DNA of 32,431 nt from Chloroflexota bacterium (GTDB lineage Bacteria > Chloroflexota > Anaerolineae > Anaerolineales > Villigracilaceae), in assembly GCA_016208355.1 (NCBI GenBank), contig JACQYE010000080.1, positions 1 to 32,431 of the forward strand. Reading direction: 5' to 3'. Every line of letters starts with the position of its first letter. Position 1 is the first letter of the stretch. Below the pieces are notes generated by a model that did no database searches, had not been told where the DNA came from, and worked only from the letters and a program-made list of their open reading frames with translations. Positions 1,204-26,377 of this stretch are shown here, in pieces. A program made the position numbers and the translations under genes.

Positions 1204-1206
1204 GCC

Positions 1207-1620: not shown

Positions 1621-1636
1621 TTCATAAAGAAAAACC

Positions 1637-2434: not shown

Positions 2435-2564
2435 CCTACCTGGAAGCGCCCTTTGCAAAAATGGAAAATCACAATAAGAAAAGGAGGTGGTCCCTGCAAG
2501 AACATATCCAGTTTTGTTATTCAAGATCAAACCAACCCTATCTACTCTAAGGAGGAGTAATCTC

Positions 2565-3920: not shown

Positions 3921-3937
3921 ATAACCATCCGTTCGTT

Positions 3938-3971
3938 GGGGCGGGCGCAATCATTGCGCCTGCCCCGTTTT
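3938..3971 (+). terminator. Strong GC hairpin in the livK-livG intergenic region (terminator/attenuator-like)
   Basis: GGGGCGGGCGCAA-tca-TTGCGCCTGCCCC followed by gtttt. Confidence 0.65.
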
Positions 3972-4019
3972 GCTATTATTATTTCATTATCTTGAAAGCC
4001 AACCCTGCGAGAAAAATCT

Positions 4020-4802: not shown

Positions 4803-4808
4803 CCGGGA

Positions 4809-5513: not shown

Positions 5514-5522
5514 GAGGATTGC

Positions 5523-7094: not shown

Positions 7095-7100
7095 GACACG

Positions 7101-10720: not shown

Positions 10721-10734
10721 AGGAGCAGCGTCAG

Positions 10735-12330
10735 ATGAATAACTCCTATAAATTAATCGAAGAAGGCAGAAAAGACGAGCTGTGGAAGAAACACTGTGGG
10801 TTTCTTGGATTGAGCAGGGAAGAATTCAAAGAGATCCAGGAACGGCTCATGCGTGAGCAGTTGCAATTGCTGGGAGGCTCCAAGCTAAGCCAGGCGATCT
10901 GGAAAGGAATCATCCCATCCAGCATTGAGGAATTTCGAAGAATCACGCCGTTGACGACCTATGCAGATTATGAGAAATTCCTCAAGGACAAGAACGAAGA
11001 AGTCCTGCCTGTAAAGCCGTTCACCTGGGCGCGTACATCGGCCCGAAGCAGCCAGGATCCAAAGTGGATCCCGTATACCCAGACCATGTACAACCACCTG
11101 AGTGATCCGGTCATCGGCGCCATGTTGATGAGTTCTTGTTCTGAACCCGGAGACGTGCGCCTGGAGAGGAATGACAAATTCCTCATGGCAACGGCACCCC
11201 CTCCATATGCTTCCGGCTACATCAGCCGGTCCACCAAGGACAATCTGGAGGTGATCTTCCTGCCGAAACTGGAAGACGGGGAGAAGATGTCTTATGGCGA
11301 ACGTGTTGCCACTGGTTTTAAATTGGCCATGCGGGAAGGCCTGGATTATTTCATGGGCATCTCGGTTGTGCTCGCCAGGATGGGAGAGCAATTCGAACAG
11401 CAATCCCAAAATTCAAAACCATCCAAAGCCCTGCTCAATCCGGTGGTTTTATGGAGAATGCTGAAGGCGCTGTTCATCTCAAAGATCAACAAACGGGGTA
11501 TCCTCCCCAAGGATATCTGGCACCTGAAAGGCATCATGTCGGGAGGCACCGATACGGAGATCTACCGGGACCGGATCGAACATTACTGGGGCAGGAAACC
11601 GCTCGAGGGATTTGCCTGCACGGAAGCCGGGAACATGGCCATGCAAGCCTGGAATTATAAGGGCATGATCTTCTTCCCGGACAATGCTTTCCTGGAATTT
11701 ATTCCCATGGTCGAGGTGGAAAAGAACAAAGCAGATCCTGCTTATACACCAAGCACTGTCCTGTACAACGAATTAGATCTGGGCGTCTATGAACTGGTCT
11801 TTTCGAGCTTCCATGGTGGAGTTCTGATGCGCTACCGGATTGGCGACCTGTTCGAAGTCATCGCCAACGAGGACGCGGAGATCGGTTCAGGATTACCTCA
11901 GATGAAATTCTTTTCACGCGCGGACGACCTCATCGATATTGGCTCCTTTTTCAGGTTGACCGAGCGGGATATATGGAAAACCATCGAAGCCAGCGGGGTT
12001 GCTTATGTGGATTGGATCGCTCGAAAGGAAATCCAAGCCGGAAATCCTGTTCTCCATCTCTATATCGAACCCAAACCGGCAAATACCCAGACTGCCGAAG
12101 AAATCCATGCGGCGCTCGATCGGGCTTTCGTCTCACGGTTTGCGGATTATCAGTCGTTGAAAGATATGCTTTCAATTAACCCCTTGCTGGTCACCCTGAT
12201 ACCAGTCGGCTCGTTCACGGCGTATATGCAGGCGAAAATCAAGGCCGGGGCAGACCTGGCTCACTTGAAACCGCCCCATATGAAACCGTCCGATGCGGTC
12301 TTGAAGCTGCTACTTTCTGCGGATCAATAA
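10735..12330 (+). CDS. GH3 auxin-responsive-promoter family protein (acyl-adenylate/acyl-amido synthetase-like)
   Basis: RTSARSSQDPKWIPYTQTM (GH3 motif region), FACTEAGNMAMQAWN, YELVFSSFHGGVLMRYRIGDLFEV, FFSRADDLIDIGSFFRLTE. AAGGAGC RBS before ATG 10735. Confidence 0.8.
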   Translation: MNNSYKLIEEGRKDELWKKHCGFLGLSREEFKEIQERLMREQLQLLGGSKLSQAIWKGIIPSSIEEFRRITPLTTYADYEKFLKDKNEEVLPVKPFTWARTSARSSQDPKWIPYTQTMYNHLSDPVIGAMLMSSCSEPGDVRLERNDKFLMATAPPPYASGYISRSTKDNLEVIFLPKLEDGEKMSYGERVATGFKLAMREGLDYFMGISVVLARMGEQFEQQSQNSKPSKALLNPVVLWRMLKALFISKINKRGILPKDIWHLKGIMSGGTDTEIYRDRIEHYWGRKPLEGFACTEAGNMAMQAWNYKGMIFFPDNAFLEFIPMVEVEKNKADPAYTPSTVLYNELDLGVYELVFSSFHGGVLMRYRIGDLFEVIANEDAEIGSGLPQMKFFSRADDLIDIGSFFRLTERDIWKTIEASGVAYVDWIARKEIQAGNPVLHLYIEPKPANTQTAEEIHAALDRAFVSRFADYQSLKDMLSINPLLVTLIPVGSFTAYMQAKIKAGADLAHLKPPHMKPSDAVLKLLLSADQ

Positions 12331-12341
12331 GTAAACCGCTT

Positions 12342-14300
12342 ATGCACTGGAATGCGGGCACGCTGATTTCCCTGGTTTCAACCGTTCTCTATGGGGCGAT
12401 CTTTGGTTTGGTTGCCTTTTCAAGGCCGCGCAATCAACTGCGCAGGATATTTGCTCTTTATTTATTGGCGATGGTGCTGTGGTCGAGCAGCGCTTTCCTG
12501 ACCACCTCCGGCCTCGTGAACGTCCTGACCTGGTTCAAAATCATGGCGGCCTCCCCGATCGCGATGATGGTGGGGATATTCTACTTCGTGCAAACGTTGT
12601 TCGGTTTGAGACGCAAGTGGGCGCCTCTCACCGTTTTCTATGCAATCCTGGCCGTTGCATTCACGGTCTTCTCGGACCTCGTGGTACTTTCCGCGTCTCT
12701 CTCCCCCTCCGGCGAGTTGCATTACGAGTTGAACACCCCTGTTATAGTTTTGCTGGCCGGGGTGGGATATTTCCTGATCGTCGTCAGCCTGGTGGACCTG
12801 ATCAAAGGCTTGAAACATACCCAGGACGCCAATCACCGCCAACGACTGAGATACCTGGTCATTGGCCTATCCATCACCATCGTGTCGACAGCAGCAAACT
12901 TTACAGAACTGGGAAAATATCCGATCGATGTGGCGGCCAATGTCCTCACGGCCATTCTGATTGCCTACGCCATCCTCCGCCATAATTTACTTGACATCAA
13001 GGTTGTCGTCCGTTTGGGGATCCTCTATTCCGTTATCACCGCGATATTGGGCTCCATTTATTTTCTGGTCATATCGCTGGTGTTGAACATATTCAACCTC
13101 CTTGCGGGGGAAGAACTCCTCCTTATTTCGATCCTCGTTGGCGCCCTCTCCGGGTTCATCCTGACCCCGCTCCGAAACCTGACCCAAACCTCGGTTGACC
13201 GTTTGTTCTACCGGGAAAAATATAATGCCGGGCTCATGCTCCAGCGACTCAGCCAGACGACTGTATCCGTCCTGGATCTGGACGCGGTCGCAGATCTTGT
13301 GCTCTCGGAAATAATCGAAACCCTTCACATCAACCATGGAGCAATCATGGTTAAAAGCATGAAAGGTGGATATTTCCGGGCGCTTGCCCAGCGCGGAGAG
13401 ACTCATGGAATGAATTTGGCGTTTGAGGCTGACCACCCGATCGTTCGATGGATGAAACTACAAAACAGAATCCTGACCAAGCATGACCTTTCGATTCATC
13501 CAACCTTCAAGGCCTTGTGGGGAAAGGAACGTCAGGATCTGGCGAGATTCCAGATCGAATTATTCATTCCTCTCCTGTTCAAAGGCGACCTGGTTGGTTA
13601 TATTGTTCTCGGTCCGAGGCGATCCGGACAACCTTATACCAGTGATGATCTGGTGTTCTTATCCACGCTGTCCAACCAGACGGCAGTCACTGTCGAGAAC
13701 GCCCGCCTGTTTGATGAATTGGAAGAGACATTTGTTCAAACCGTGAGCGCCTTGGCAAATGCCATTGACATTCGCGACTCATATACAAGCTCACATAGCC
13801 AGGAGATTGCCGGTTGGGCGGCGAAAATTGCCGAAAAGATAGGCTGCAGACCCGATCAAATAAAATCCGTCTATTGGGGGGGTGTGCTTCACGACATCGG
13901 CAAGATCGGCATTCCTGACGAGATCCTTAGAAAAAAGACATCGCTCGATAGGCCTGAGTGGGATATTATTTACCAACACACGCGGCGGGGAGCGGAGATC
14001 ATCGCCCCAATCAAGAAGCTGGAAGCCGTAGCGCCAATCATCGCCAGCTCCCATGAACGCTACGATGGGCTGGGGTATCCCATGGGCATCAAAGGGGAGG
14101 AAATCCCGCTGGGTGCGCGCATTGTGGCGGTGGTAGATTCTTTCTCCGCGATGATTAGTGAACGGCCGTATAAAAAACCGTATACGGTAAACAAAGCCAT
14201 CCATGAGTTGAAACGAAATATCGGAAAAATGTACGACCCCGCGGTCGTCCAGGCTTTCCTGGAAGTCCTCGAAATCGATGCTTCCCAGATCGATTCGTGA
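12342..14300 (+). CDS. 7TM (HisK_7TM-like) + GAF + HD-GYP cyclic-di-GMP phosphodiesterase-like protein
   Basis: N-terminal multi-TM; GAF region (VADLVLSEIIETLHINHGAIMV...TVENARLF); HDIGKIGIPDEIL and SHERYDGLGYPMGIKGEEIPLGARIVAVVDSF. Confidence 0.88.
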   Translation: MHWNAGTLISLVSTVLYGAIFGLVAFSRPRNQLRRIFALYLLAMVLWSSSAFLTTSGLVNVLTWFKIMAASPIAMMVGIFYFVQTLFGLRRKWAPLTVFYAILAVAFTVFSDLVVLSASLSPSGELHYELNTPVIVLLAGVGYFLIVVSLVDLIKGLKHTQDANHRQRLRYLVIGLSITIVSTAANFTELGKYPIDVAANVLTAILIAYAILRHNLLDIKVVVRLGILYSVITAILGSIYFLVISLVLNIFNLLAGEELLLISILVGALSGFILTPLRNLTQTSVDRLFYREKYNAGLMLQRLSQTTVSVLDLDAVADLVLSEIIETLHINHGAIMVKSMKGGYFRALAQRGETHGMNLAFEADHPIVRWMKLQNRILTKHDLSIHPTFKALWGKERQDLARFQIELFIPLLFKGDLVGYIVLGPRRSGQPYTSDDLVFLSTLSNQTAVTVENARLFDELEETFVQTVSALANAIDIRDSYTSSHSQEIAGWAAKIAEKIGCRPDQIKSVYWGGVLHDIGKIGIPDEILRKKTSLDRPEWDIIYQHTRRGAEIIAPIKKLEAVAPIIASSHERYDGLGYPMGIKGEEIPLGARIVAVVDSFSAMISERPYKKPYTVNKAIHELKRNIGKMYDPAVVQAFLEVLEIDASQIDS

Positions 14301-14339
14301 ATCGTGAGCACACAGGGGCCTGCCATCTGAAAGAAGGCA

Positions 14340-14495
14340 ATGAGCATGACACAAAAACCAATTTCCAGAGGGGAAAATGCGGGGAAGCTGCTTGAAGAAT
14401 CTGAGATTCGCTACCAGCATCTGCTAAAAACGACCCTGGATGGAATACTCGTAGTAAAGGGCGATCCAGTCAATCCATTTTTCAGGATTTACTGA
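14340..14495 (+). pseudogene. N-terminal PAS fragment, out of frame with the downstream GAF-GGDEF gene
   Basis: MSMTQKPISRGENAGKLLEESEIRYQHLLKTTLDGILVVKGDPVNPFFRIY*: start of a PAS domain (ESEIRYQHLLKTTLDGILVV), which ends prematurely. The PAS C-terminal half (IRYSDISLRTKDGRLIHAELICTVYRVGRRKTIQCVLRDITEQRQA) continues in another frame. Confidence 0.55.
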
Positions 14496-14548
14496 GAAAA
14501 GAGACCATTCGTTATAGTGATATCTCCCTGCGAACCAAAGACGGCCGT

Positions 14549-15628
14549 TTGATCCATGCCGAACTGATCTGTACCGTTTATCGAGTGGGTCGTAGGAAAA
14601 CCATCCAATGTGTCCTTCGTGACATCACCGAGCAGAGGCAGGCACTAACTCTACAGGATGCAATCTACCGGATCGCTGTTGCGGCGGAGACAACCAAATC
14701 CTTGAATGATCTGTTCCCGGAAATCCATGAAATTATTTTATCGGTTATGCCTGCTGAAAATTTTTACATCACTCTGTACGACGAAAAACAAAACCTCCTG
14801 CGCTTCCCTTATTTCAAGGACGCTCTTGACGAGCCTTACATAGATGAGATTGAGCCTGGGAAAGGATTGACCGCCTACGTTCTCAAGACCGGGAAATCTC
14901 TGCTCTGCACCCAGGCGGTTCATGATGACCTAGAACGGCAGGGGAAAGTGGTCCTGCTCGGGGTGCCGTCTGCCATCTGGCTGGGTGTGCCGCTGATCAT
15001 TGAGGAGAAGACCATTGGCGCCATGGTAGTTCAGCACTATACCGATCCGCAGGCCTACGGGGAGCGGGAGCAGCACATGCTTGAGTTCGTCTCTTCCCAG
15101 GTTGCCCTGGCGATCTCCCGCAAGCAGGTCGAAGATAAACTGAGGCACATGAGCACCCATGACATGCTGACAGGCCTCTTTAACCGTACCTTTTGCGATG
15201 AAGAAATAGCACGCCTCCAACGAGGGCGTCAATTCCCAGTTAGCATCGTGATAGCGGATGTGGATGACCTAAAAAAGACAAACGACTTGCGGGGACACGC
15301 CGCCGGAGACGACCTGCTTATATCCGTTGCAAAGGTGCTGACCACTGCCTTTCGACGCGAGGATATGGTAGCGCGCATTGGCGGGGATGAATTTATCGTG
15401 CTCATGCCGAAGACAGCCGCGGCGGTGGCGGATGAAGCCCTTCGACGGGTGCGCGGCCTGTTAGTACTGTATAACGCCGCTCATGTAGAGACTCCGCTGC
15501 ATCTATCGCTTGGTGTTAGCACAGCTCAAAAAGGCACTCCCCTGGCAGAGGTGCTCAAGGAAGCAGACCGGAGCATGTATGCAGAGAAACAAAAACACTC
15601 CGGGCCAAATTCCCAAACAGCGCCGTAA
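14549..15628 (+). CDS. GAF-GGDEF diguanylate cyclase (with residual PAS C-terminus; possibly 5'-damaged)
   Basis: VLRDITEQRQ PAS end; GAF-like middle; DMLTGLFNRTFCDEEIARL, RREDMVARIGGDEFIVLMP (GGDEF with RxxD I-site). Confidence 0.85.
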   Translation: MIHAELICTVYRVGRRKTIQCVLRDITEQRQALTLQDAIYRIAVAAETTKSLNDLFPEIHEIILSVMPAENFYITLYDEKQNLLRFPYFKDALDEPYIDEIEPGKGLTAYVLKTGKSLLCTQAVHDDLERQGKVVLLGVPSAIWLGVPLIIEEKTIGAMVVQHYTDPQAYGEREQHMLEFVSSQVALAISRKQVEDKLRHMSTHDMLTGLFNRTFCDEEIARLQRGRQFPVSIVIADVDDLKKTNDLRGHAAGDDLLISVAKVLTTAFRREDMVARIGGDEFIVLMPKTAAAVADEALRRVRGLLVLYNAAHVETPLHLSLGVSTAQKGTPLAEVLKEADRSMYAEKQKHSGPNSQTAP

Positions 15629-15879: not shown

Positions 15880-16755
15880 TTACCGCAGACAATGGTTCAC
15901 AATTCGTTCGGCAATATCGAAATGCGTCACCTGTTGCAACCCCTCCCAGGCGGGCATGCTGTTGACCTCCAGGATGAACAGGTCACCCGATGTACTGCGG
16001 AGCAGGTCCACACCACAATACTCCGCCCCAAGAATCTGCGCAGCCTTCAGGCTGGCTTCGCGCACATCGTTGGACGGTTTGTAAGCCACCGGCTGACCCC
16101 CTGCTGCAATGTTTGTTTTCCAACTATCAGCAATCCGTTCCATGGAGGCAACGCATTCCCCTCCTACAACCAGCACACGCAAGTCGCGGTTGCCATGCGG
16201 GATGAACTTCTGCAAATAATACACATAACTGCCGAGTTGCAGCGCTTTGAACACCCTGCCGGCAGTCTCAGCATCCGAAACACGCACCATCCCCACCCCA
16301 CGGCTGCCGAACAACGGCTTGACCACCACGTCGCCCCCCAGTCTATGGTAAGCGTTGAATGCTTCGTCTGTCCCTTCCATCACCAAAGTTTCAGGCACGG
16401 GCAAGCCAGCACTCTGCAGCAGGGAAAGTGTATAGTATTTATCCACCATCTTTTCGATGGCATAGGGGGAATTGAACACTTTCATCCCAGTGTTCTCGAG
16501 TTGGTGGAGCGCATCCATGCGGAAAATGATCTGCTCCAGGCTGCCTCCCGGCACTTCACGCACCAACGCCCTTTCAAAGCGGGAGAGAGGGATATTCTCC
16601 GACAATACTTCAAGCGGGGAGCCCAACCTGGCCTGCAGGCGATTAACATTTGCAAAGAGGGTTTCCACCTTTCGTTTCTTCAAAGCGCGCAGGAGCGCCC
16701 GGCTGTGCCAAGCCTCAGGGGTACCGAAAATGACCATCCGCGTCTTAGCCATCAC
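15880..16755 (-). CDS. RimK/MptN-like ATP-grasp ligase
   Basis: NSPYAIEKMVDKYYTLSLLQSAGLPVPETLV, GGDVVVKPLFGSRGVGMVRV, YLQKFIPHGNRDLRVLVVGGE, FILEVNSMPAWEGLQQVT. Confidence 0.88.
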   Translation of the reverse strand: MMAKTRMVIFGTPEAWHSRALLRALKKRKVETLFANVNRLQARLGSPLEVLSENIPLSRFERALVREVPGGSLEQIIFRMDALHQLENTGMKVFNSPYAIEKMVDKYYTLSLLQSAGLPVPETLVMEGTDEAFNAYHRLGGDVVVKPLFGSRGVGMVRVSDAETAGRVFKALQLGSYVYYLQKFIPHGNRDLRVLVVGGECVASMERIADSWKTNIAAGGQPVAYKPSNDVREASLKAAQILGAEYCGVDLLRSTSGDLFILEVNSMPAWEGLQQVTHFDIAERIVNHCLR

Positions 16756-17704
16756 TCGAGCCTTTCAATGCTTGTACCAGCCGGATCTGATCAATTTGCC
16801 CGGCATGGAAGACGTGACCGCTGGTCAGATCAACCAGCGTTGCTTCGGCCGGCGCGAATAGACCAGGATCAATATTATAAAACCCGCCTGCCTTTTTCAG
16901 GGTCTGGAGGAAAGGTTTCCCGTAACCGGGGCTTGTTGACGAGGGAAGAGCCTTTACCAACTCCGATAGTTCCTGATCCGTGGTTTCCTTGACGGACAAC
17001 CAGAAGCTGGAGGCGAAAATAACCATGTCATTCGTCTTGCCCAGCGAGGTCAAGTCGTCACCGGTAGGTGCAGCGACCGGGCAGCGTCCCACCCCACTGA
17101 TTGCCTTGTGCAGGTCGAATCCCAACTGGCGCAGTTTGTGCAACCCGGTCTCGACGGAACGTGCTGCAATCTGGGCTGAACCTGCCAGGCTGGAAGTAGG
17201 GGCTACCAGGACCGCGAGATGTTCAGCCTTGACCCCGCAGGCGGTTGCGAGGGAAATGCAGACGTCTTCGTCAGGCAAAGCAGGGGCCTCCAGAATCAGG
17301 ACAGCGCGTTCGGAAGTCTCACTGAAGGCGAACCCCTTTCCGACCTCCAACCTTTTGTTCAATAAACAGGCCGGACCCGAACCCATGGCGCGGTACTTCC
17401 CCATCTCCACCGGCCAGTGGGCAGCCTGGCTCAAGTAGCAGGCATCCAGGGGATGGTCGCTTTGGGTCACGACCCACACCCAGTGAATTCCTCCCACCTC
17501 TCCCATTTCCAGCCTGGCGCTCCCCAGGCCAGACATGCCGATTTTGGCCATCAACAAGCCTGCTTGTAATCCGCCAGCTGCCCTGACCCCGAAATCAAAG
17601 AGCAAGGTCCCACAATCCGCCTGATTGAAATGGATCCCGAACTGTTCTCTCCGGTCAATTGTTTGATGTAGTTCTTCCCAGGCACGCTCATTCAAATTCA
17701 TCAT
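16745..17704 (-). CDS. mch: Methenyltetrahydromethanopterin cyclohydrolase
   Basis: NLNERAWEELHQTID..., GVRAAGGLQAGLLMAKIGMSGLG, YRAMGSGPACLLNK, ILEAPALPDEDVC, GVGRCPVAAPTGDDLTSLGKTNDMVIFAS. Confidence 0.93.
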   Translation of the reverse strand: MMNLNERAWEELHQTIDRREQFGIHFNQADCGTLLFDFGVRAAGGLQAGLLMAKIGMSGLGSARLEMGEVGGIHWVWVVTQSDHPLDACYLSQAAHWPVEMGKYRAMGSGPACLLNKRLEVGKGFAFSETSERAVLILEAPALPDEDVCISLATACGVKAEHLAVLVAPTSSLAGSAQIAARSVETGLHKLRQLGFDLHKAISGVGRCPVAAPTGDDLTSLGKTNDMVIFASSFWLSVKETTDQELSELVKALPSSTSPGYGKPFLQTLKKAGGFYNIDPGLFAPAEATLVDLTSGHVFHAGQIDQIRLVQALKGSSDG

Positions 17705-18509
17705 AGACCAGAATCTCTCCTTTGCCCATTTCGAGGGGATCGCCCGTATAACGTTTTGGCGTCATCCGTGACCATTCCTCCGGAACATGGACGTTTATTT
17801 TTCCTAACATGACAAGACAGATCTTCAACCACTCGGTATCCGCCTCCCCGGCAGATTGAAAGCCGGGCAACATGCCGGATATCTTCCCGGCCACCAGGCT
17901 GCCGCGTTTCATACCGATCCCGGCGTATTTTCCCAACCGCCCTGCGCAAAGAAATGTACCGGCATTCATGCGCGCGGCGCAAAATTCACCGACATCCCCG
18001 GCCGCATAGATCAAACCGCGGCGCATCCCTGCCCCTGCTTCCCGCCCCGCATTTCCACCAATCAGAATTACCCCTCCAGTCATGCCGTCCTTCTCGCCGG
18101 GGGAATTCGCGCCGCACCAATCTCCCACATTGCCAGCGGCGCGGATCTGGCCTCCGTGCAGTGCGAGGCCGAGGCAGTCGGCGGCATTCCCCAGGATTTC
18201 AATCGTTCCACCGTTCATCTCTTCGCCCGTACCGTAACCCGCGTCCCCTTCGACCACCATCGTTCCAACACCCATGCACGTGCCGACGCGTTCCAGGTTG
18301 GAAGTCTCACCCCGCAAGCTCAGTCTGTCCTGACCTTTCGATGAACACCTCACGCGGCAAACATCCCCCAACCTGACCTGCCGCCCGGAGACAACCACCG
18401 GAAGGCGCTCGATCTCAGCCTTCGTCCGACCGAACACCGTCTCAGGCAAGATACCGGACAGGTCCACCTGGGATGAACCTACCGCCGGAAAATCGAGACA
18501 AACCCTCAA
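17688..18509 (-). CDS. fhcC: Formylmethanofuran dehydrogenase / Fhc complex subunit C
   Basis: GltS-C/FwdC-like glycine repeats: GDAGYGTGEEMNGGTIEILGNAADCLG...GGVILIGGNAGREAGAGMRRGLIYAAGDVGEFCAARMNAGTFLCAGRLGKYAGIGMKRG; PKRYTGD. Confidence 0.92.
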   Translation of the reverse strand: MRVCLDFPAVGSSQVDLSGILPETVFGRTKAEIERLPVVVSGRQVRLGDVCRVRCSSKGQDRLSLRGETSNLERVGTCMGVGTMVVEGDAGYGTGEEMNGGTIEILGNAADCLGLALHGGQIRAAGNVGDWCGANSPGEKDGMTGGVILIGGNAGREAGAGMRRGLIYAAGDVGEFCAARMNAGTFLCAGRLGKYAGIGMKRGSLVAGKISGMLPGFQSAGEADTEWLKICLVMLGKINVHVPEEWSRMTPKRYTGDPLEMGKGEILVYDEFE

Positions 18510-18511
18510 GG

Positions 18512-19402
18512 TCAGGTCTCCTCCAGAATTTTATGCAGGTACAGGTGGAACGGCCCCCACTTTCCGCCATAGTTCCCTGCCGTGATGCGAATCACACCCG
18601 GCTGGCAAGCTGTCAGGAGCGCTGCCCGCATGGCCTTCTTCACAACCTCCTCGCTCAACCCATCTATCACCACTTCGTAGACAGCCAAAGCGTCCGGGGA
18701 GAGTTGAGTAGCCACCCGGCTGCGCAGCGTGGGGCAGTAGACTTCGTTCGTAGAGGCGCGCACGTTTTTATACTGTGAACCGGGCTTGCTCGGGCTGCGG
18801 CAAATACCGCCGGGAAAGGGTGCGATGGCACCCGGTACGGAACGCACGGCCTGCACGGCGCTTTCCGCGGCGCCCAAAAGTACTGACCTTTCCCGGCCGA
18901 TAATGATCAGGTTCCCACCGCCCACGCCCAGACCCAAACCAAAAGACTCTTCCACCACAAACTCGCCGTCAGCGACCGGGATACGCCAATAGCGCTGGTC
19001 GCCAAATTTCTTGCTGGCCTGGAAGCCATCGCCGAAATAACGCAGGCGTCCACCCACTTTGACAAATTTTTCGACCTGTAAGCCGTTAAAACAGGCGGAA
19101 GTCGCCGAAGGGAGTATCGCCTGCCCGATGCGCAGAAACAGGTGCTCCTCCAGCTTTTCCGGCGAATGGCTGAACAACAGGACAGCCTGGCCGGGACGCC
19201 CATCCGGCGTCTGATCGGGTGGCAGTGCGCCCTCCAGGCCAGATTCACAGGCGCAGCCGATGATCGAAAAAGCCAGTCCAGCCGCCGCCTCCGCTGCCTG
19301 CAATGCCAGCCGAGGGGTATCGGCGGTAATGACCAAACGGCTGACCCACATGGGGAATGCCTCGGCGAACGTATCCTCAATCAGGACACCTTTGATCTGC
19401 AT
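18512..19402 (-). CDS. fhcD: Formylmethanofuran:tetrahydromethanopterin formyltransferase (Ftr/FhcD)
   Basis: MQIKGVLIEDTFAEAFPMWVSRLVITADT..., SIIGCACESGLEG, VPGAIAPFPGGICRSPSKPGSQYKNVRASTNEVYCPTLR. Confidence 0.93.
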   Translation of the reverse strand: MQIKGVLIEDTFAEAFPMWVSRLVITADTPRLALQAAEAAAGLAFSIIGCACESGLEGALPPDQTPDGRPGQAVLLFSHSPEKLEEHLFLRIGQAILPSATSACFNGLQVEKFVKVGGRLRYFGDGFQASKKFGDQRYWRIPVADGEFVVEESFGLGLGVGGGNLIIIGRERSVLLGAAESAVQAVRSVPGAIAPFPGGICRSPSKPGSQYKNVRASTNEVYCPTLRSRVATQLSPDALAVYEVVIDGLSEEVVKKAMRAALLTACQPGVIRITAGNYGGKWGPFHLYLHKILEET

Positions 19403-20985
19403 GGCACCTCCAACATCCCCGCTATCGGTCCAAGCCCCAGAGCATAATGCTCCGGCTGGACAGTGACGATTTTAGATAAATTCCGCTGGATGAGGGGCAG
19501 TCGTTCAAAATCCCAGGCAGGTCTCACGACCAGGATATCCCCCTCGCCCAGTTGAACGATCCTGCCCTCCCGGACAACGATTTTCCCGCCTTTCATAACC
19601 CAGGCAGGCTGGGAGAACATTGCCTGTATATCAGCCTGCCTGCGATAGCAGCGAATATCGGCCCGCGCCCCAACCCCGAGATGACCGCGGTCCGACAGGC
19701 CGAGTGCCCGGGCCGGGCCCCAACTGGTCATGGCGAAGATTTCGCCCAAGGTATATTCACGCTTCACGGCAGCCAGACCGGTCTTCTTCGTAGCCGCCCT
19801 GTGAACCTGTTTCAAAGCTTCCCGGCGAGCCGCGCTGCTCATCAGCCAGGCGATCACTTGCGGATAGGCTGTGAAAGGTCCCCCATTGGGATGGTCGGTC
19901 GTCAGGAACATCCGCGCCGGGTCCGGGAAGCGCAATAAAAGTTCCAGCCCGGTAGCCCACTGGACTGCACTCGCCGGGCTCTTGGCCAGGTAGGCCAGGG
20001 GCAGGACACTGTTCCCGCCTTCCCCTTCCACCTGGCGGCTGATCCACGGCTGCCCGGTCGCGTTGCGAAGGTGACTCGCCGCGCTGGTATCCGCGGTGAC
20101 AGCCAGCGCTGTTCCAAACAAAACCTGTCCCACATCGAAAGTAAGCTGATGGTAAGGCTCGATGCAGCGGACGACCTGCCCGGCTGCTGAAGAATATCCG
20201 CATCCATCGTCGTCGCCATAGGCATAAAACTGGATGTGGCACAGGTGGGCACGCTGGCCATCCAGCACTCGCACCGTCTCGCAGAATGAGGCGGAATTCC
20301 CCGGTCGGCCGAGCTGACCGGCATGCAGGTGGACCGGGTGAGGCAGGCCCATTTCGTTGACAAGTTCCACCACCATGCGGATGATCTTGCGCTGCGTCAG
20401 GTCGCCCAGCCCGATCGATTCGTCCAGGCCGGGAGTCGGCCGGTTCGCTTTCCAGGCGATCCCGCCCCCGGGGTTGACCAGCTTGACCGCATAACCGCCA
20501 GATACCTGTAACAACCAGGAAAGCGTATCACGGATATTCCCCCGGTCACCGGCTGCCAGCGCCTTGAGCAGCAACAAATGATCGCCCATCAGGGTGTAGG
20601 TGCCGCGGTCCAGAACCTGCATACTCTCCAAATCAGCAAGAGTGGAGCGGGCAAACAACGGCGAACTGGCCGCGTCGAAAACCGTGGTATATCCCAAGCA
20701 CAGATAACGCTCGGCGGCTTCTTTTGCCGGAGGTGTCAGCAGGTCCAGCGCGGCCGCGTCAGGAAGGAGGAATCGACGCGCCGCATTAAGGCCGTAACCG
20801 GCAACGTGGGCGTGAATCTCCACCCCGGCCGGAGCGACGATCATGCCGCGCCCATCAATAACCTGCGGCTCGGCCCCCTCTTGTGGAGGGGCAATAATAC
20901 GCCCATTATCCAGCCATAGATCGCGCACTTCTCCATCAATGCCGTGCGCCGGGTCGTAAATTTCAGCGCCTCGGATCAGGATCAT
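19381..20985 (-). CDS. fhcA: Formylmethanofuran dehydrogenase / Fhc complex subunit A (amidohydrolase)
   Basis: VAPAGVEIHAHVAGYG (HxH), GGYAVKLVNPGG (carboxylatable Lys), HPVHLHAGQLGRPGN, HLCHIQFYAYG, MFLTTDHPNGGPFTAYPQVIAWLM (Asp). Confidence 0.94.
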   Translation of the reverse strand: MILIRGAEIYDPAHGIDGEVRDLWLDNGRIIAPPQEGAEPQVIDGRGMIVAPAGVEIHAHVAGYGLNAARRFLLPDAAALDLLTPPAKEAAERYLCLGYTTVFDAASSPLFARSTLADLESMQVLDRGTYTLMGDHLLLLKALAAGDRGNIRDTLSWLLQVSGGYAVKLVNPGGGIAWKANRPTPGLDESIGLGDLTQRKIIRMVVELVNEMGLPHPVHLHAGQLGRPGNSASFCETVRVLDGQRAHLCHIQFYAYGDDDGCGYSSAAGQVVRCIEPYHQLTFDVGQVLFGTALAVTADTSAASHLRNATGQPWISRQVEGEGGNSVLPLAYLAKSPASAVQWATGLELLLRFPDPARMFLTTDHPNGGPFTAYPQVIAWLMSSAARREALKQVHRAATKKTGLAAVKREYTLGEIFAMTSWGPARALGLSDRGHLGVGARADIRCYRRQADIQAMFSQPAWVMKGGKIVVREGRIVQLGEGDILVVRPAWDFERLPLIQRNLSKIVTVQPEHYALGLGPIAGMLEVPCRSKVS

Positions 20986-22139
20986 ACTCGAGGTCCCTCT
21001 GAGGCCAGGTCTGCCAGGATTGCATTGGCTGTAGGTCGCTCCATCGGCATGATAGGCTGAAGTGCAATTGGGACACCGTCCAGGCGCTGAACCTGCCCCG
21101 AGACATCAATTCCCGCTTGAGCGACCGGTAACCAGTCATGCGGCCTCCAGGAGGGTGCCAGCGGGTCAAGCAGGATTGTCCTGTTCTTTTCAAGCCTGGC
21201 AAACGTCTGTTCGGAGAAGTGCCTGGGCCGCCCGATGAGCAGGCAGAGGTCAGGCCAATCCATCTGAATAAGCCTCTCTGCCTGCCATCTGCGCGGAGAA
21301 TAGCCGACACTCTTGGCCTTGAAGCGCACATTAGGAGGAAATCCGGTTGCAAACAGAAGTGTTTCCACCACTCCAGTATTATTGGATGCCAATGAAAGAT
21401 ATTGTGCATACCATCGTCCCGTGCGGTTGAGGTCATTCAGCCAGAGCAGGAATTCAGTCGTCACGGGTAAACCCGCTTCCAGCCACTTGGGACCGAAGAA
21501 GACCACCCCGGAAGTAGCTTTCTGGATCTGGGCGGCAATGTCGGTATAGAAGTCTGGAATATTCTCCCCCCTCTCCTCGTTCCCCAACCGGAGCCAGCGA
21601 ATGGCTTCGAGAGGGTCCGGCGGATCGAGAAAGATGGCCTGCGAGAGAAGGTTCTTTTGGATCATCTCGCCCAGGCGAGGGTGCGACTGTCCAGGTTCTA
21701 CCCCGCACAGCACCACCTGTTCGAGGTTGCGCAACTCGCCCAGAGTTCCGGTCAGGAAACCCGCCGTCTTCATAGCCAAAGCAAACATGCTGCCAGTGTA
21801 TTCCTCTGCGCAGGTCAAGATGGCGGAGAACTTTTTCGAGAATCGGATGGCGCCTTCAACCGCTTCCCGGTCCAAGTCAGCTGAGAGCACCACAAGCAGC
21901 CTGCTCGCTGCCTCCAATGAAAGACGCACCGCCTGTAAAGCAGTCCTTGTCTGGGATTGTTTCCTTGAGGCAGACAAACCTGAAATCGCATTTGCATAAC
22001 CCATCTGGCCTTTCTCGCACGGTGGGCTGAAATCGGCCAGCCGACCTCCGTCAATGGTCAGACGGAGGTCGGTGCAATGCAGGCTGCAGAATGGACAAGT
22101 TGTCCGCAGTTCTTCACCCATTGTTGATAAACTTCCCAA
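20982..22139 (-). CDS. fhcB: Formylmethanofuran dehydrogenase / Fhc complex subunit B
   Basis: RTTCPFCSLHCTDLRLTIDGGRLADFSPPCEKG; FLTGTLGELRNLEQVVLCGVEPGQSHPR; FATGFPPNVRFKAKSVGYSPRRWQAERLI; gene order next to fhcA/D/C. The start could be ATG 22121. Confidence 0.9.
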   Translation of the reverse strand: MGSLSTMGEELRTTCPFCSLHCTDLRLTIDGGRLADFSPPCEKGQMGYANAISGLSASRKQSQTRTALQAVRLSLEAASRLLVVLSADLDREAVEGAIRFSKKFSAILTCAEEYTGSMFALAMKTAGFLTGTLGELRNLEQVVLCGVEPGQSHPRLGEMIQKNLLSQAIFLDPPDPLEAIRWLRLGNEERGENIPDFYTDIAAQIQKATSGVVFFGPKWLEAGLPVTTEFLLWLNDLNRTGRWYAQYLSLASNNTGVVETLLFATGFPPNVRFKAKSVGYSPRRWQAERLIQMDWPDLCLLIGRPRHFSEQTFARLEKNRTILLDPLAPSWRPHDWLPVAQAGIDVSGQVQRLDGVPIALQPIMPMERPTANAILADLASEGPRV

Positions 22140-22144
22140 GTGCT

Positions 22145-23416
22145 TTAGGGTGTGACCTGGAATTGGGTCAGAATCGCATGATCAACGGATGCCTTTGCCT
22201 GATCAAGCGCCTCCTGGGGAGTGGCAACGCCCAGTTCGACCTGCTCAACGGCATTCCGCAGGGCAAGGTCGCTGTTTCCAAACGCTGAAAAAATCGGGAT
22301 TGAGAAGGCGTAGGGGAGCGAATCAAGCGCTGCCTGGCGCAACGGATTATCGGTGATCAGGCTCTCGATCTCAGGCCAATTCAGCGCATCCTCATAGATC
22401 GGGATGTAGCCAGTATGGCCTGTCAGGTAGATCGAACTATCCTCGGAAACCATGAATTTCACGAATTCCCAGGAGGCCGCAGTGAGACGTGAATCGTCAT
22501 TCTTGAATATTACCAGACTGCCTCCGCCCAACGGAACCTTGCGAACCGCGCCGACAGCCGGGAACATGGTCGTTCCCACCGAGAAGGTCGCGCCGGACTG
22601 TATGCTGCCGGCCAGGGAGGTCGAACCCAGCATCATCCCCAGCTTGCCAGCCAGGAAGTCGGAGAGAGCTTCTTCATGCTGGTTGATAGGCATGACCTTG
22701 TAGGTATTGACCCAATCACCCCACATCTGTAACATGGCGACCGCTTCTGGACTGTTATACAGGAAAAAAGTGCTCAAATACCAATGCGTATCATCGCGAG
22801 TATTCAAGCCCCATTGTGTAGGATCGCCACCGGTGTCAGGCCGGATGGTCAAGGCCTGGGCGGCAGCCAGAAGTTCTTCCACGGTCTGGGGTGGGGAGTC
22901 CGGATCCAACCCCGCAGCCATGAACAGGTCCCGATTGTAGTACAGGATTGGAACGGAGTTATTGAAGGGCATACTCCATAAGACCCCACCTGAAGTGTTG
23001 TAGTCCCAAAAAGCGGAACGAATCGCTTGTGAGGCGAAGCTTTCATCACTGGCAATAAAGTCACTCATCGGCAGGATGGCATCGCTGCCGCCCAAGAGCG
23101 GTGCGCCACCCAGTTGGGCGATGTTTGGCAGCGTTCCGCCAGCGATGGCGCTGTACACCTTGGCCATGGCAGTGGTGTAATCCCCCTGGTATGTCCCAAC
23201 GACTGTAATCCCCGGATGCCCGGCGTTGAACTGGCGGACAAGTTCCTCGATTGCCTCGCCGCTGTCACCTCCCAGCGCATACCAGAATTCCAAGGTGATA
23301 TTCCCATCCTCATCTACGCTACCACCCCCACCAGCGCCCGTCTGCTCCCCTCCATTGCTAGCGGAAAACAGCAGGACGGTCAGGAGCAGGAAAACCAACC
23401 AATGTCTGTTTCTCAT
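22145..23416 (-). CDS. Carbohydrate-type (UgpB-like) ABC transporter substrate-binding protein
   Basis: ITLEFWYALGGDSGEAIEELVRQFNAGHPGITVVGTYQGDYTTAMAKVYSAIAGGTLPNIAQLG; PFNNSVPILYYNRDLFMAAGLDP. Confidence 0.9.
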   Translation of the reverse strand: MRNRHWLVFLLLTVLLFSASNGGEQTGAGGGGSVDEDGNITLEFWYALGGDSGEAIEELVRQFNAGHPGITVVGTYQGDYTTAMAKVYSAIAGGTLPNIAQLGGAPLLGGSDAILPMSDFIASDESFASQAIRSAFWDYNTSGGVLWSMPFNNSVPILYYNRDLFMAAGLDPDSPPQTVEELLAAAQALTIRPDTGGDPTQWGLNTRDDTHWYLSTFFLYNSPEAVAMLQMWGDWVNTYKVMPINQHEEALSDFLAGKLGMMLGSTSLAGSIQSGATFSVGTTMFPAVGAVRKVPLGGGSLVIFKNDDSRLTAASWEFVKFMVSEDSSIYLTGHTGYIPIYEDALNWPEIESLITDNPLRQAALDSLPYAFSIPIFSAFGNSDLALRNAVEQVELGVATPQEALDQAKASVDHAILTQFQVTP

Positions 23417-23452: not shown

Positions 23453-24511
23453 CTACATGACCAGCGCCATGACTGCCTTCTGGACGTGAAGCCGGTTCTC
23501 GGCCTCATCGAAAGCAGCCGAAAGCCATCCGCTGCCGGTAGTCCTGTCAATTACTTCGTTGGCAACCTCGAAGCCGCGGTCGCATGGCAGGCAGTGCAGG
23601 TAAATGGCGTGTTTGTCGGCTGTGTCCATGATTCCGGGTGTGCATATCCAATCCTTGTGCTGATCGAAGATCGCCTGGGTCTTCTTGGAGTCTGATTCGC
23701 CCACCGGCGGCTGGAAGATCGGTGTGGCGCACCAGGCTTTCGGGTAGACCACATGAGCGCCCTGGATGCCGTCCTCGAAATCGTTGGTGATACGGAAGGA
23801 ACCACTGCTTGCTTCTGCGTATTGGTTGCACTGTGCCAGGATTTTGGAGTCCAGTTCCATTCCTTTTGGGTGCGCCAGGGTGACTTCCATCCCCATCATT
23901 GTGGCGTACAAGATGGCAGACTGGGGCACGGCGCGCGGCTTGTGCACGCTGGGCGAGTACGCCCAAGACATGGTGTATTTGATGCCCTTATAGCCGCCAA
24001 ACTTCTCCTTGACCGTCAAGGTGTCTGCCAATCCCTGGAAGGGGTGATAGATGTCATCTTCCATATTGAGTACCGGTACATCCGACCAGCGGGCGAATTC
24101 TTCCAGCATGGCATGCGCACCGCCATATTCCCAGTCAACCGGATCCCCATAGCAACGGATGGCGATGGCATCCCCCATTCGATCGAGAACACGCGCCACG
24201 TCTGAAACGCGCTCGGTTGAGTAGGCTACCTCACGCCCTTCCATGGCCGGACGGTAGATCTTGTCAGGGTCCAGGTAATGGGCATGACCGCCGAGTTGGG
24301 TCATTCCGGCTTCGAAGGAGTTGCGCGTGCGCAAAGATTGGTTGTAGAAGATCATGAAGAGGGTCTTGGCGCGCAGCAGATCATCGTGCAGCCTGCCTTT
24401 GGCGCGGTCCATCTTCAACTCTTGCGCCAGTTCCAACACTTGCTCGATCTCCTCACGGCTGAAATCGGTTTCCGCCAGGAAGTCCCGGCCACGAAAAGAG
24501 GTTGTCTTCAT
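23453..24511 (-). CDS. Carbamoyltransferase, N-acetylornithine carbamoyltransferase-like
   Basis: SLRTRNSFEAGMTQLGGHAHYL (SxRTR carbamoyl-phosphate motif with Leu), HPFQGLADTLTVKEKFGG, HCLPCDRGFEV, AAFDEAENRLHVQKAVMA. Confidence 0.88.
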   Translation of the reverse strand: MKTTSFRGRDFLAETDFSREEIEQVLELAQELKMDRAKGRLHDDLLRAKTLFMIFYNQSLRTRNSFEAGMTQLGGHAHYLDPDKIYRPAMEGREVAYSTERVSDVARVLDRMGDAIAIRCYGDPVDWEYGGAHAMLEEFARWSDVPVLNMEDDIYHPFQGLADTLTVKEKFGGYKGIKYTMSWAYSPSVHKPRAVPQSAILYATMMGMEVTLAHPKGMELDSKILAQCNQYAEASSGSFRITNDFEDGIQGAHVVYPKAWCATPIFQPPVGESDSKKTQAIFDQHKDWICTPGIMDTADKHAIYLHCLPCDRGFEVANEVIDRTTGSGWLSAAFDEAENRLHVQKAVMALVM

Positions 24512-24543: not shown

Positions 24544-25434
24544 TTAGATGTCTTTTAACCCGGTGCTGGCCATGCTTTCCACAAAAGTTTTTTGCACCAG
24601 GAAATAAATCAGGATCACAGGAACAGAGATCAGCACTGCCGCAGCCATGTACAGACCCCACTGTGTCCCCCCCTCTCCACTGACAAAGTAACGCAGCCCG
24701 ATCTGCAGGGTGCGCATATCATCGCGGTTGGTGACGATCAATGGCCACAGGTAGGAATTCCAGTTGCCCATAAAGGCGAATAGCGCCTGGGAAGCAAGGA
24801 TGGGTTTACACAATGGCAGAAGGATCTGAACCAGAAAACGGAAACGACCGCAGCCATCCAAAATGGCAGCCTCTTCCAGTTCGCGCGGGACGGTCCGGAA
24901 GGATTGACGGATCATGAATACCCCAAAGGCATTGGCGAGAAACGGAACGATCAGTGCCTGGTAGTGGTCAATCCAGTTTAGGCTGCGCATGATAAGGTAA
25001 GAAGGCACCAGAGTAACCTGGCTGGAGATCATGGTAGTGCTCAGGAAAAGAAGGAACATGGTGTTCTTGCCTTTGAAATTCATGCGGGCAAAAGCGAAGG
25101 CAGCCAGGACACACGCGGTCAACTGCCCAATGGTTACCGATACGGCCACGATGGTACTGTTCAGGAAATAGCGTCCAAAAGGGGCCTCCTGCCAGACATC
25201 CAGGTAGTTTTCCCACTGCGGCTGCTGCGGAATCCACGTAGGAGGATAGGCGAAGACCTCGGTCTGGCCCTTTAGGGAGGTGACGATCATCCAAATGAAT
25301 GGGACCATGACAGCCAGTGCGAGTAAGATGACAACCACATACCAGAGCAGGTCCAAGGCAAGTTTCTGGAAACGCGGCCAGTTCATTTTTCCAGATTTTG
25401 AGAATCGGGAGGTCCGTGCAGAAGCGTCATTCAT
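24544..25434 (-). CDS. Carbohydrate-type ABC transporter permease (MalG/UgpE family)
   Basis: Multi-TM; EEAAILDGCGRFRFLVQILLPLCKPILASQALFAFMGNWNSYLWPL. Start reset to the internal ATG at 25434 (MNDASARTS). Confidence 0.9.
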   Translation of the reverse strand: MNDASARTSRFSKSGKMNWPRFQKLALDLLWYVVVILLALAVMVPFIWMIVTSLKGQTEVFAYPPTWIPQQPQWENYLDVWQEAPFGRYFLNSTIVAVSVTIGQLTACVLAAFAFARMNFKGKNTMFLLFLSTTMISSQVTLVPSYLIMRSLNWIDHYQALIVPFLANAFGVFMIRQSFRTVPRELEEAAILDGCGRFRFLVQILLPLCKPILASQALFAFMGNWNSYLWPLIVTNRDDMRTLQIGLRYFVSGEGGTQWGLYMAAAVLISVPVILIYFLVQKTFVESMASTGLKDI

Positions 25435-26377
25435 AATGCACCTTCCGGTCAATAAAGCGGAACTGAATCCAGGTCAGCAATAAAAGCATGATGAACAACA
25501 TCACAGCAATTGCCGAGGCCTTTCCCATTTGGAAGAACTGAAAGGCATTCTGGTACAGATAATAGGCCAGGGTTGTGGTGGAGCCGAGCGGTCCGCCCTG
25601 GGTCATAACGTCAATCTCGGTGAAGGCTTTGAGTGAATTGATCATCCCGACCGAAAGCACGTAGAAGAGAGTCGGTCCCAGCAATGGCCAGGTGACATGC
25701 CGAAAGAGCGAAAGTTGGTTCGCACCATCTATTTTGGCGGCCTCATAATAAGTGCGCGGGATGGACTGCAAGCCCGCCAGAAAAATGATGATGTTGTATC
25801 CCATCCCGTACCAGACCCCCATCCCGATCAGGCAAGGCATAGCGAGAAGAGGGTCGCGCAGCCAGCGTTGAATCGGCAAGCCCAGCTCGATCAACAGGCT
25901 GTTGAACAAACCGTATTGGGCGGGGTGAAACAACCACAACCAGACCACCGAGACAGCCGTCATAGAGGTGATGGCTGGGAGGAAGAATGTGGTTCGAAAA
26001 ATACCCACACCTCGCATCCGACGATTTAGCAGCAGGGCGATGAGAAGCGAGACAAATAGGTTAATCGGCACGCCCAGGGCAAAGTAAAAAGTATTCAGGA
26101 ATGATTTCCAGAAAATAGGGCCTTCAATGGCATCTGTAAATAAATATACATAGTTCTCGAAATCGAAACCCAAGAAGACCGGCTGCATAGGCATATTCCA
26201 ACGAAATAGACTGATCACCACCGAATAGACTGCCGGAAAGAAGGTGAAGGCAATGAAAATCACCAGGCTGGGCAGCAGGAACAGGTACGCAGCAAAGGTT
26301 TCTTCCCCCCAACGACGCCACCAGCGTCTTTTTTGCCCGGCAGGTAAGCGACCCTGTATCTTGGTTTTTGTACTCAT
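25427..26377 (-). CDS. Carbohydrate-type ABC transporter permease (MalF/UgpA family)
   Basis: Multi-TM; YYEAAKIDGANQLSLFRHVTWPLLGPTLFYV (EAA loop). Confidence 0.91.
   Translation of the reverse strand: MSTKTKIQGRLPAGQKRRWWRRWGEETFAAYLFLLPSLVIFIAFTFFPAVYSVVISLFRWNMPMQPVFLGFDFENYVYLFTDAIEGPIFWKSFLNTFYFALGVPINLFVSLLIALLLNRRMRGVGIFRTTFFLPAITSMTAVSVVWLWLFHPAQYGLFNSLLIELGLPIQRWLRDPLLAMPCLIGMGVWYGMGYNIIIFLAGLQSIPRTYYEAAKIDGANQLSLFRHVTWPLLGPTLFYVLSVGMINSLKAFTEIDVMTQGGPLGSTTTLAYYLYQNAFQFFQMGKASAIAVMLFIMLLLLTWIQFRFIDRKVHYE

Follow-up and report, generated by a model that had tools for sequence, protein, structure and literature searches.

What is a set of methanogen-type C1 enzymes doing inside an import and catabolic operon of a Chloroflexota bacterium? 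Bacterial mch and fhc genes are usually interpreted as formaldehyde oxidation. In the window analyzed here, a stretch of 32,431 nucleotides from a Chloroflexota MAG, six minus-strand genes (22139-15880) encode FhcB, FhcA, FhcD, FhcC, Mch, and a MyfB/MptN-like glutamate ligase, and the reading frames and overlaps given in an initial annotation were confirmed. We found that these six form the 3' end of a packed 16-gene run (31508 to 15880, gaps of -26 to +36 bp). Ten same-strand genes lie upstream of fhcB, with each gap at most 36 bp, and this start of the run had been overlooked. The run passes from an ECF transporter through an ADP-ribosylglycohydrolase homologue, a TIM barrel, ABC permeases, an ornithine-carbamoyltransferase-like enzyme, and a solute-binding protein to fhc-mch-myfB. 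The features are as follows, where C53 is a separate contig of the same genome and G217 is a genome whose gene array is described below.

29007-29813, 29810-30664, and 30657-31508, minus strand: ECF T component and two ATPases (PF02361, PF00005 twice)
28215-28991, minus strand: candidate ECF S component (substrate-binding), 30% to another S-like protein, encoded on C53
27223-28218, minus strand: ADP-ribosylglycohydrolase homologue, likely starting at ATG 28218 (PF03747, 203 bits; 47% in the G217 array)
26374-27216, minus strand: xylose-isomerase-like TIM barrel (PF01261, 69 bits; 39% in the G217 array)
25427-26377, minus strand: UgpA-like ABC permease (PF00528; 53% in the G217 array)
24544-25452, minus strand: UgpE-like ABC permease (PF00528; 54% in the G217 array)
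23453-24511, minus strand: ornithine/acetylornithine-carbamoyltransferase-like enzyme (81-86% identity across linked loci)
22145-23416, minus strand: UgpB-like ABC solute-binding protein, 5 bp upstream of fhcB (PF13416, 119 bits)
20982-22139, minus strand: fhcB, FwdB/FhcB-like scaffold subunit (TIGR03129, AF2 model)
19381-20985, minus strand: fhcA, formylmethanofuran/methylofuran amidohydrolase (TIGR03121, 505 bits)
18512-19402, minus strand: fhcD (Ftr), formyltransferase (TIGR03119, 373 bits)
17688-18509, minus strand: fhcC, beta-helix scaffold subunit (TIGR03122, 201 bits)
16745-17704, minus strand: mch, methenyl-H4MPT cyclohydrolase homologue (TIGR03120, 296 bits)
15880-16755, minus strand: myfB-like RimK-family ATP-grasp glutamate ligase (NF040720, 249 bits, under cut-off)

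The candidate S component had no Pfam match, and its relative on C53 is itself a weak ECF-S match. The carbamoyltransferase scored 148 bits with the YgeW model TIGR03316 (cut-off 500) and 275 bits with the acetylornithine carbamoyltransferase model (cut-off 288). The tetranucleotide profile of the window correlates with the rest of its contig and with C53 at r 0.92-0.93, and with loci of other Anaerolineae at 0.46-0.79. The contamination or chimerism that the initial annotation had allowed for is therefore unlikely, and we rejected it. The Chloroflexota-like bacterial context proposed there was borne out by same-class genomes (Anaerolineales E26_bin7 and Anaerolineae MAG-31).

NCBIfam and Pfam profiles support the identities first assigned to the six gene products, with FhcB divergent and the ligase under the MptN cut-off of 350 bits. 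FhcA, FhcD, FhcC, and Mch each score over the curated NCBIfam cut-off (393, 293, 131, and 229 bits). All the amidohydrolase motifs of FhcA (HxH, Lys, His, His, Asp) align as identical to those of 6s6y_A, the Methylorubrum extorquens FhcA, which is also its best solved relative (327 bits). FhcD is 52-54% identical to other Chloroflexota FhcD proteins. Mch keeps the catalytic Arg-x-x-Glu pair (R182, E185), carries C113 in place of the otherwise invariant Arg of GSGPAR, and gives a model with TM 0.94 to 1qlm/4gvq. The ATP-grasp ligase, which is 56% identical to its homologue at the same operon position in the related locus L067, probably adds the polyglutamate tail of methylofuran, as predicted from MyfB function (PMC8141765).

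FhcB is a clear homologue at 114 bits, far under its cut-off of 328, and its AF2 model (pLDDT 87.6) best matches FwdB in the PDB (5t5m/5t5i, TM 0.83; FhcB 6s6y, TM 0.68). It retains the four-Cys Fe-S motif (C15, C18, C22, C41). The Cys or Sec that ligates W/Mo-bisPGD is absent: in the alignment, the VCHGPS column, whose ligand Cys other Chloroflexota FwdB-type subunits retain, reads EYTGSM. The complex should thus be a hydrolase, and a true formylmethanofuran dehydrogenase (Fwd/Fmd) was rejected on this ground. All genes of the 16-gene run are accounted for and none is FwdD, which several relatives have.

We then considered what feeds this module. In targeted searches of the 90.6% complete MAG, Fae and MtdA/B had no match, and MptG, MptA, and a DHPS-like protein were not detected. 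MfnB (PF04476) is also absent from the MAG, as it is from most relatives with the full cluster. Some relatives that carry MtdB and a fwd/fhc cluster likewise lack MptG or MfnB, which makes absence weak evidence. With Fae and MtdA/B not found, formaldehyde entry was rejected, in line with the earlier suggestion that C1 may enter other than as formaldehyde. Of the "complete" C1 module first described, the half from Mch to formate stands and the rest does not, and the proposed use of archaeal-type H4MPT carriers is left unsupported. The absence of biosynthesis genes from a complete genome had been named as grounds for abandoning that proposal; MptG, MptA, a DHPS-like protein, and MfnB all went undetected, in a MAG that falls short of complete.

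The neighbors of related genes point to a different role. The closest operon, in Chloroflexi AS27yjCOA_192 (L067), occupies a single 10-kb contig and reads SBP-fhcB-A-D-C-mch-myfB-myfA-OTC-LLM, where the carbamoyltransferase (OTC) is 85% identical, LLM is an F420-type reductase, and the solute-binding protein (SBP) adjoining fhcB is a homologue (53%). The Clostridia sister L123 reads SsnA-DAO-fhcD-myfA-fhcB-fhcA. SsnA, OTC, LLM, or DAO relatives occur at just two of the 79 named fhcD loci, L067 and L123, which are the FhcA sisters of the window. In an unrooted tree, all three FhcA sequences lie together with proteobacterial Fhc to one side of a weakly supported branch (84); the FhcA and Mch branches are long, and tree placement is therefore uncertain. 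Genome G217 holds a one-strand array (contig C90, 35493 to 5401) of ADPRGH-TIM-UgpA-UgpE-SBP-SsnA2-OTC-AOR-Fd-AOR-mch-LLM-SsnA-GlcD-M19-ECF-PfkB-Xdh, in which mch is divergent and the solute-binding protein beside SsnA2-OTC is 43% identical to that of the window. In G126 (contig C54), GlcD(81%)-SsnA-PreA-SsnA2-AOR-ECF lies beside the fhc operon and mtdB.

In the window's own genome, the purine-type half and the fhc half are on separate contigs. C53 holds XdhD/YgfM-, LLM-, SsnA-, HyuA-, GlcD-, and PfkB-type genes, with HyuA at 538 bits (TIGR02033, cut-off 393) and SsnA at 202 bits (TIGR03314, cut-off 455). An in-frame stop interrupts the LLM gene early on, and an internal segment of it is missing; in Xdh, a frameshift and a stretch of N break up the gene. 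From the sequence, these defects look like decay or assembly error. Rfam was searched for riboswitches that might hint at the substrate, and the window, C53, L067, and the G217 contig gave no match.

Together, the operon context and the missing partner genes suggest formate release during nucleoside-like breakdown and not growth on methanol. Our preferred reading, to which we give a probability of roughly 0.5, is that the Mch/Fhc module has been co-opted for breaking down an N-heterocycle, probably purine-nucleoside-like, with the C1 unit leaving as formate. As part of this reading, the module would comprise a redox-inactive Fhc-type formyltransferase/hydrolase, a cyclohydrolase, and a carrier-tail ligase. 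Its basis is in sequence: the operon anatomy, the FhcB without the ligand Cys, the catalytic motifs that are unbroken in FhcA and Mch, and the repeated co-location with genes for carbamoyltransferase, amidohydrolases of the SsnA/HyuA type, W/Mo enzymes of the XDH/AOR type, flavoenzymes (F420-type LLM or DAO), and transport and sugar handling of the nucleoside type. Li et al. (PMC12507026) reported a putative F420 luciferase-family reductase in SsnA clusters of Chloroflexota. The substrate would be imported, and its sugar part would pass to the ADP-ribosylglycohydrolase homologue, the TIM barrel, and the PfkB kinase. The base would be reduced and opened by XDH, LLM, SsnA, and HyuA, and the ureido carbamoyl removed by the carbamoyltransferase. 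A C1 unit, carbon 8 if the base is a purine with C8-H, would remain at the formamidine/formyl level. Mch would then open or pass this unit to give an N-formyl product, acting on either a pterin carrier or the catabolite itself; FhcD would move the formyl to a polyglutamyl furan carrier, from which FhcA would hydrolyze it to formate.

A more specific version, which we regard as doubtful, is that F420-dependent dearomatization leaves ring carbon 8 as a cyclic formamidine (imidazoline), and that the Mch-family enzyme hydrolyzes this catabolite itself with no H4MPT, before FhcD passes the formyl to the furan carrier and FhcA releases it as formate. If true, methanogen-type C1 enzymes would have been repurposed for purine catabolism in anaerobes.

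The C1 unit could instead be the N-methyl group of a heterocycle that is either a methylated base or of the creatinine/hydantoin type. Sarcosine-like products would arise through deaminase, hydantoinase, and carbamoyltransferase; a pterin would then be loaded by a DAO-like reaction or by methyl transfer, and Mch/Fhc would oxidize the C1 to formate. HyuA-, SsnA-, and OTC-type enzymes do suit hydantoin and carbamoyl-amino-acid steps, DAO genes (ThiO/sarcosine-oxidase-like) are neighbors of mch in G210 and of fhcD in L123, MtmB homologues lie near SsnA in G265, and G126 has MtdB. We consider this unlikely: the window and C53 showed no DAO or MtmB, the own genome has no MtdB to fill the methylene-level route, and a nucleoside-type purine is what the XDH, AOR, PfkB, and ADP-ribosylglycohydrolase genes suggest.

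Ordinary H4MPT/methylofuran formaldehyde oxidation or detoxification, with Fae, MtdB, and the biosynthesis genes too divergent or in the ~9% unassembled, is similarly improbable. The fhcB-A-D-C-mch-myfB order matches that of Chloroflexota with MtdB and H4MPT biosynthesis, the catalytic residues are retained, and several MtdB-bearing relatives also lack a recognizable MptG. However, five markers (Fae, MtdA/B, MptG, MptA, and DHPS-like) are jointly missing, the genes sit in a tight operon with a carbamoyltransferase and transporters on long, accelerated branches, and the linked genes are absent from all 77 remaining named fhcD loci.

For amidohydrolases, hydrolysis is the expected favored direction, which counts against a module that runs biosynthetically. 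That use, or buffering of formate/formyl (formyl units made from formate, or formate supplying electrons to a reductive purine breakdown, so that purine-gene linkage reflects C1 need and not C1 release), is very unlikely: the Fwd A subunit does condense formate onto methanofuran in reversible chemistry (PMC11656701), and an Enterococcus requires formate for complete urate degradation (as noted in PMC12507026), but FhcB without a W/Mo site cannot supply CO2-derived formate, and a location beside importers and catabolic enzymes suits degradation.

Returning to the preferred reading of C1 release as formate, the locus was compared with known systems. H4MPT/MF genes in Chloroflexi have already been noted (PMC5020050), and the literature has assigned Fhc to aerobic methylotrophs alone (PMC10100899). 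The M. extorquens-type Fhc (6s6y) shares FhcA-D, Mch, a RimK-like glutamate ligase, and an FhcB without the W/Mo ligand. In contrast to that system, Fae, MtdA/B, and H4MPT synthesis were not detected in the own genome, the window FhcB keeps a FwdB-like fold and the Fe-S Cys, and the genes look cotranscribed with transporters and a carbamoyltransferase. Fwd/Fmd clusters of archaea, other Chloroflexota, Synergistota, and Caldisericota share subunits A, B, and C, Ftr, often mch and myfB, and a similar order; they keep VCHGP(S/T/A) and often FwdD, MtdB, and H4MPT biosynthesis, none of which is found in the window. In Clostridium acidurici purine fermentation, formiminoglycine passes through formimino-THF and methenyl-THF to formate (PMC3519856). 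The proposed logic, in which purine C1 becomes formate by way of the methenyl and formyl levels, is the same, but C. acidurici relies on tetrahydrofolate and gains ATP through formyl-THF ligase, while Mch/Fhc-type enzymes would act here without that gain.

The module is found repeatedly alongside purine-type genes, in Chloroflexota and in a Clostridia MAG, and would be a concrete candidate for C1 disposal during anaerobic purine breakdown. If so, the metagenome annotation rule that equates fhc + mch with H4MPT methylotrophy would break, which bears on whether H4MPT/MF enzymes spread through reuse in other pathways or as inherited C1 metabolism.

Across the class, an SsnA2 orthologue was found in 4 of the 6 mch genomes without MtdB and MptG and in 31 of 243 others (Fisher p = 0.004), a grouping drawn up after the data were seen. 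Co-occurrence gave p = 0.04 for LLM with mch and p = 0.07 for mch with SsnA2 over all mch genomes. Most genomes with LLM or SsnA2 have no mch (17/21 and 30/35, respectively), so the LLM/SsnA2 pathway generally needs none, and LLM as an obligatory Mch partner was rejected as a general rule.

The reductive uric acid pathway comprises XdhD-YgfM, YgfK/UacX or an F420 LLM (yanthine reductase), SsnA, HyuA, YgeW, YgeY, and YgeX, and as described it has no C1 enzymes (PMC12507026). C53 and the window carbamoyltransferase supply XdhD/YgfM-, LLM-, SsnA-, HyuA-, and carbamoyltransferase-type genes. The differences are that Mch/Fhc, AOR, and sugar-handling genes are added here, that the carbamoyltransferase is closer to acetylornithine carbamoyltransferase than to YgeW, and that YgeY and YgeX were not detected in the own genome (best 28 and 42 bits, far under the cut-offs); ArcC was not found there either. 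Replacement of YgeY by fhc fits the window genome and fails in G126, which carries fhc and also a YgeY.

Mch and Fhc may have been reused here in N-heterocycle catabolism with formate release, a reading to which we give a probability of about 0.5, with a putative substrate, and which is of more interest than use of H4MPT carriers. The six minus-strand ORFs initially annotated as FhcB, FhcA, FhcD, FhcC, Mch and a RimK-family ligase lie exactly at their given coordinates and keep their identities under curated models, FhcB being the weakest match (114 bits, cut-off 328). The fhc-mch genes are no isolated cassette and belong to a longer same-strand run, in which the solute-binding protein gene ends 5 bp from fhcB and gaps across the ten upstream genes range from -26 to +36 bp; the ADP-ribosylglycohydrolase ORF, listed with too early a start, likely begins at ATG 28218. 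From gene spacing and strand, one 16-gene operon from 31508 to 15880 would be the simplest reading. Loci that share genes with it are listed below.

Gene orders at loci sharing genes with the module (SBP, solute-binding protein; OTC, carbamoyltransferase-like enzyme; LLM, F420-type luciferase-like reductase; ADPRGH, ADP-ribosylglycohydrolase; SsnA, SsnA2 and HyuA, amidohydrolases; Xdh and AOR, W/Mo enzymes; DAO, flavoenzyme; UgpA and UgpE, ABC permeases)
Window, minus strand, going upstream of fhcB: SBP, OTC, UgpE, UgpA, TIM barrel, ADPRGH, candidate ECF-S, ECF-T, two ECF ATPases
L067, Chloroflexi AS27yjCOA_192, single strand: SBP-fhcB-A-D-C-mch-myfB-myfA-OTC(85%)-LLM
G217, same class, other family, minus strand, C90:35493 to 5401: ADPRGH, TIM, UgpA, UgpE, SBP, SsnA2, OTC(81%); AOR2-Fd-AOR1, divergent mch, LLM, SsnA, AH2; GlcD, M19, ECF, PfkB, XdhB, XdhA
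C53, contig of the window's own genome (G000): AOR, Xdh, YgfM-like, LLM, SsnA2, HyuA, SsnA, ECF, GlcD, CCG, ECF-S, PfkB
G126: fhc operon and mtdB adjoining M19, GlcD (81%), SsnA, PreA-like, SsnA2, AOR, ECF
L123, Clostridia: BMP-type binding protein, SsnA-like (45%), DAO, fhcD, myfA, fhcB (without ligand Cys), fhcA

C53 carries the other half of the G217-type array within the window's own genome. The window operon is intact, in contrast to this half, where (L195:1024-5689) the LLM gene has a short N-terminus, an early in-frame stop and then a lost internal stretch, and a frameshift plus a gap of 45 Ns break up the Xdh gene; either this half is decaying in G000 or the draft is faulty. As a control, relatives of SsnA, OTC, LLM or DAO were counted at E<1e-25 in 79 named fhcD loci and found in two, L067 and L123; methylotroph-type loci have MtdB, FwdD or H4MPT synthesis genes in their place. 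Across 249 class genomes, SsnA2 occurs in 4/6 mch genomes without MtdB and MptG versus 31 of the 243 others (p=0.004), is weakly associated with mch overall (5/17, p=0.07), and LLM co-occurs with mch (p=0.04). These figures support coupling and are not decisive, because the grouping without MtdB and MptG was made post hoc, after inspection.

Urate yields two ureido groups on breakdown and no formyl-level one-carbon unit. For a purine with C8-H, carbon 8 would remain as formamidine. Methenyl-H4MPT has this functional group too, and there Mch opens it, a chemical parallel that we infer. Two adjacent carbamoyltransferases with a carbamate kinase, found in G262, G250 and G265, fit the pair of ureido groups, as that route would require; the window, L067 and G217 loci have one carbamoyltransferase and mch. 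Li et al. (PMC12507026) report a putative F420 luciferase-family reductase in SsnA clusters of Chloroflexota, which matches the LLM of the window's genome; no Mch or Fhc is described there. YgeY (28 bits), YgeX and ArcC were not found in the window's genome; replacement of YgeY by fhc as a general rule is ruled out by G126, which has YgeY. Near purine-type amidohydrolases of G265 (Chloroflexota) lie two uninterrupted MtmB (monomethylamine methyltransferase) family genes (L200:10568-11959, L201:10044-11435).

The window FhcA aligns best to Methylorubrum extorquens FhcA (6s6y, 327 bits), with FwdA behind, and its metal-site motifs are conserved. FhcB keeps four Fe-S cysteines and aligns EYTGSM to the FwdB tungsten-ligand motif VCHGPS, which is also lost in L067, its closest homologue; the other aligned Chloroflexota subunits from class genomes have VCHGP(S/T) or LCHGPA (6/6), with FwdD in several of those operons. 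Because of this loss and retention, and of FwdD, the window complex is, judged by its motifs, of the redox-inactive Fhc kind, whereas most Chloroflexota fhc/fwd operons look like true formylmethanofuran dehydrogenases. The AlphaFold model of the window FhcB (pLDDT 87.6) is closer to FwdB (TM 0.83) than to M. extorquens FhcB (0.68). A quick FhcA tree groups the window sequence with L067 in a deep clade (support 100), to which L123 attaches (96, long branches); on the unrooted tree, a branch supported at only 84 has all three on the same side as proteobacterial Fhc. Ligand-Cys FwdB-type and Cys-less FhcB-type complexes are adjacent in Gammaproteobacterial loci L084, L087, L094, L102, L114, L116, L117, L135, L136, L140, L142 and L076.

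The modelled Mch fold matches archaeal Mch (TM 0.94) and the Arg/Glu pair is kept; in GSGPAR, the otherwise invariant Arg is Cys in window and L067. The window's Mch sits on a long branch, and so do the mch-only paralogues in G103, G210 and G217. Homologues L031:18559-19554 (G112) and L038:4608-5690 (G034) have Ala for the catalytic Glu of R-x-x-E; within a few kb of its copy, G112 also carries a normal mch. In L041 and L042 (G210, G103), 7-11 kb separate two divergent paralogues of mch, of which one adjoins nucleoside-type ABC permeases and a DAO-type flavoenzyme; no fhc was found in the stretches read.

Use of H4MPT carriers, as the initial annotation proposed, is unproven: Fae, MptG, MtdA/B, MptA, a DHPS-like protein and MfnB were all not found in G000, which is 90.6% complete. 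The MptG and MfnB absences say little, because relatives with MtdB lack them too; joint absence of Fae, MtdB, MptA and DHPS-like says more, tempered by the ~9% of sequence missing, since such genes cluster. A carrier-free version of the reuse in N-heterocycle catabolism seems unlikely. G048 has a FolK-MptA (GTP cyclohydrolase) fusion within its fhc/fwd cluster (L030:9510-10961), and MptA/FolK-type genes adjoining fhcD in L068, L070, L095 and L097 are 64-75% identical to it. The record labelled Klebsiella pneumoniae (L145, CAMCBY010000042.1), which holds a methylotrophy fhc/mch cluster, is probably a mislabelled bin.

G000 comprises 2.76 Mb in 205 contigs with 0.67% contamination. Tetranucleotide usage of the contig's operon half correlates at r 0.92-0.93 with the other half and C53, and lower (0.46-0.79) with other Anaerolineae loci. 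Present in 17/249 class genomes and in none of 12 other sampled members of the window's family, mch is a sporadic, probably acquired trait. Elsewhere in the window, a methyltransferase and then a GH3-like acyl-adenylating enzyme (9968-12330) adjoin HD-GAF and GGDEF-GAF signalling genes (12342-15628), and a separate plus-strand cluster (1-8192) encodes a thiolase, a ChsH2-type OB-fold protein, a hydrolase and a branched-chain-type ABC transporter.
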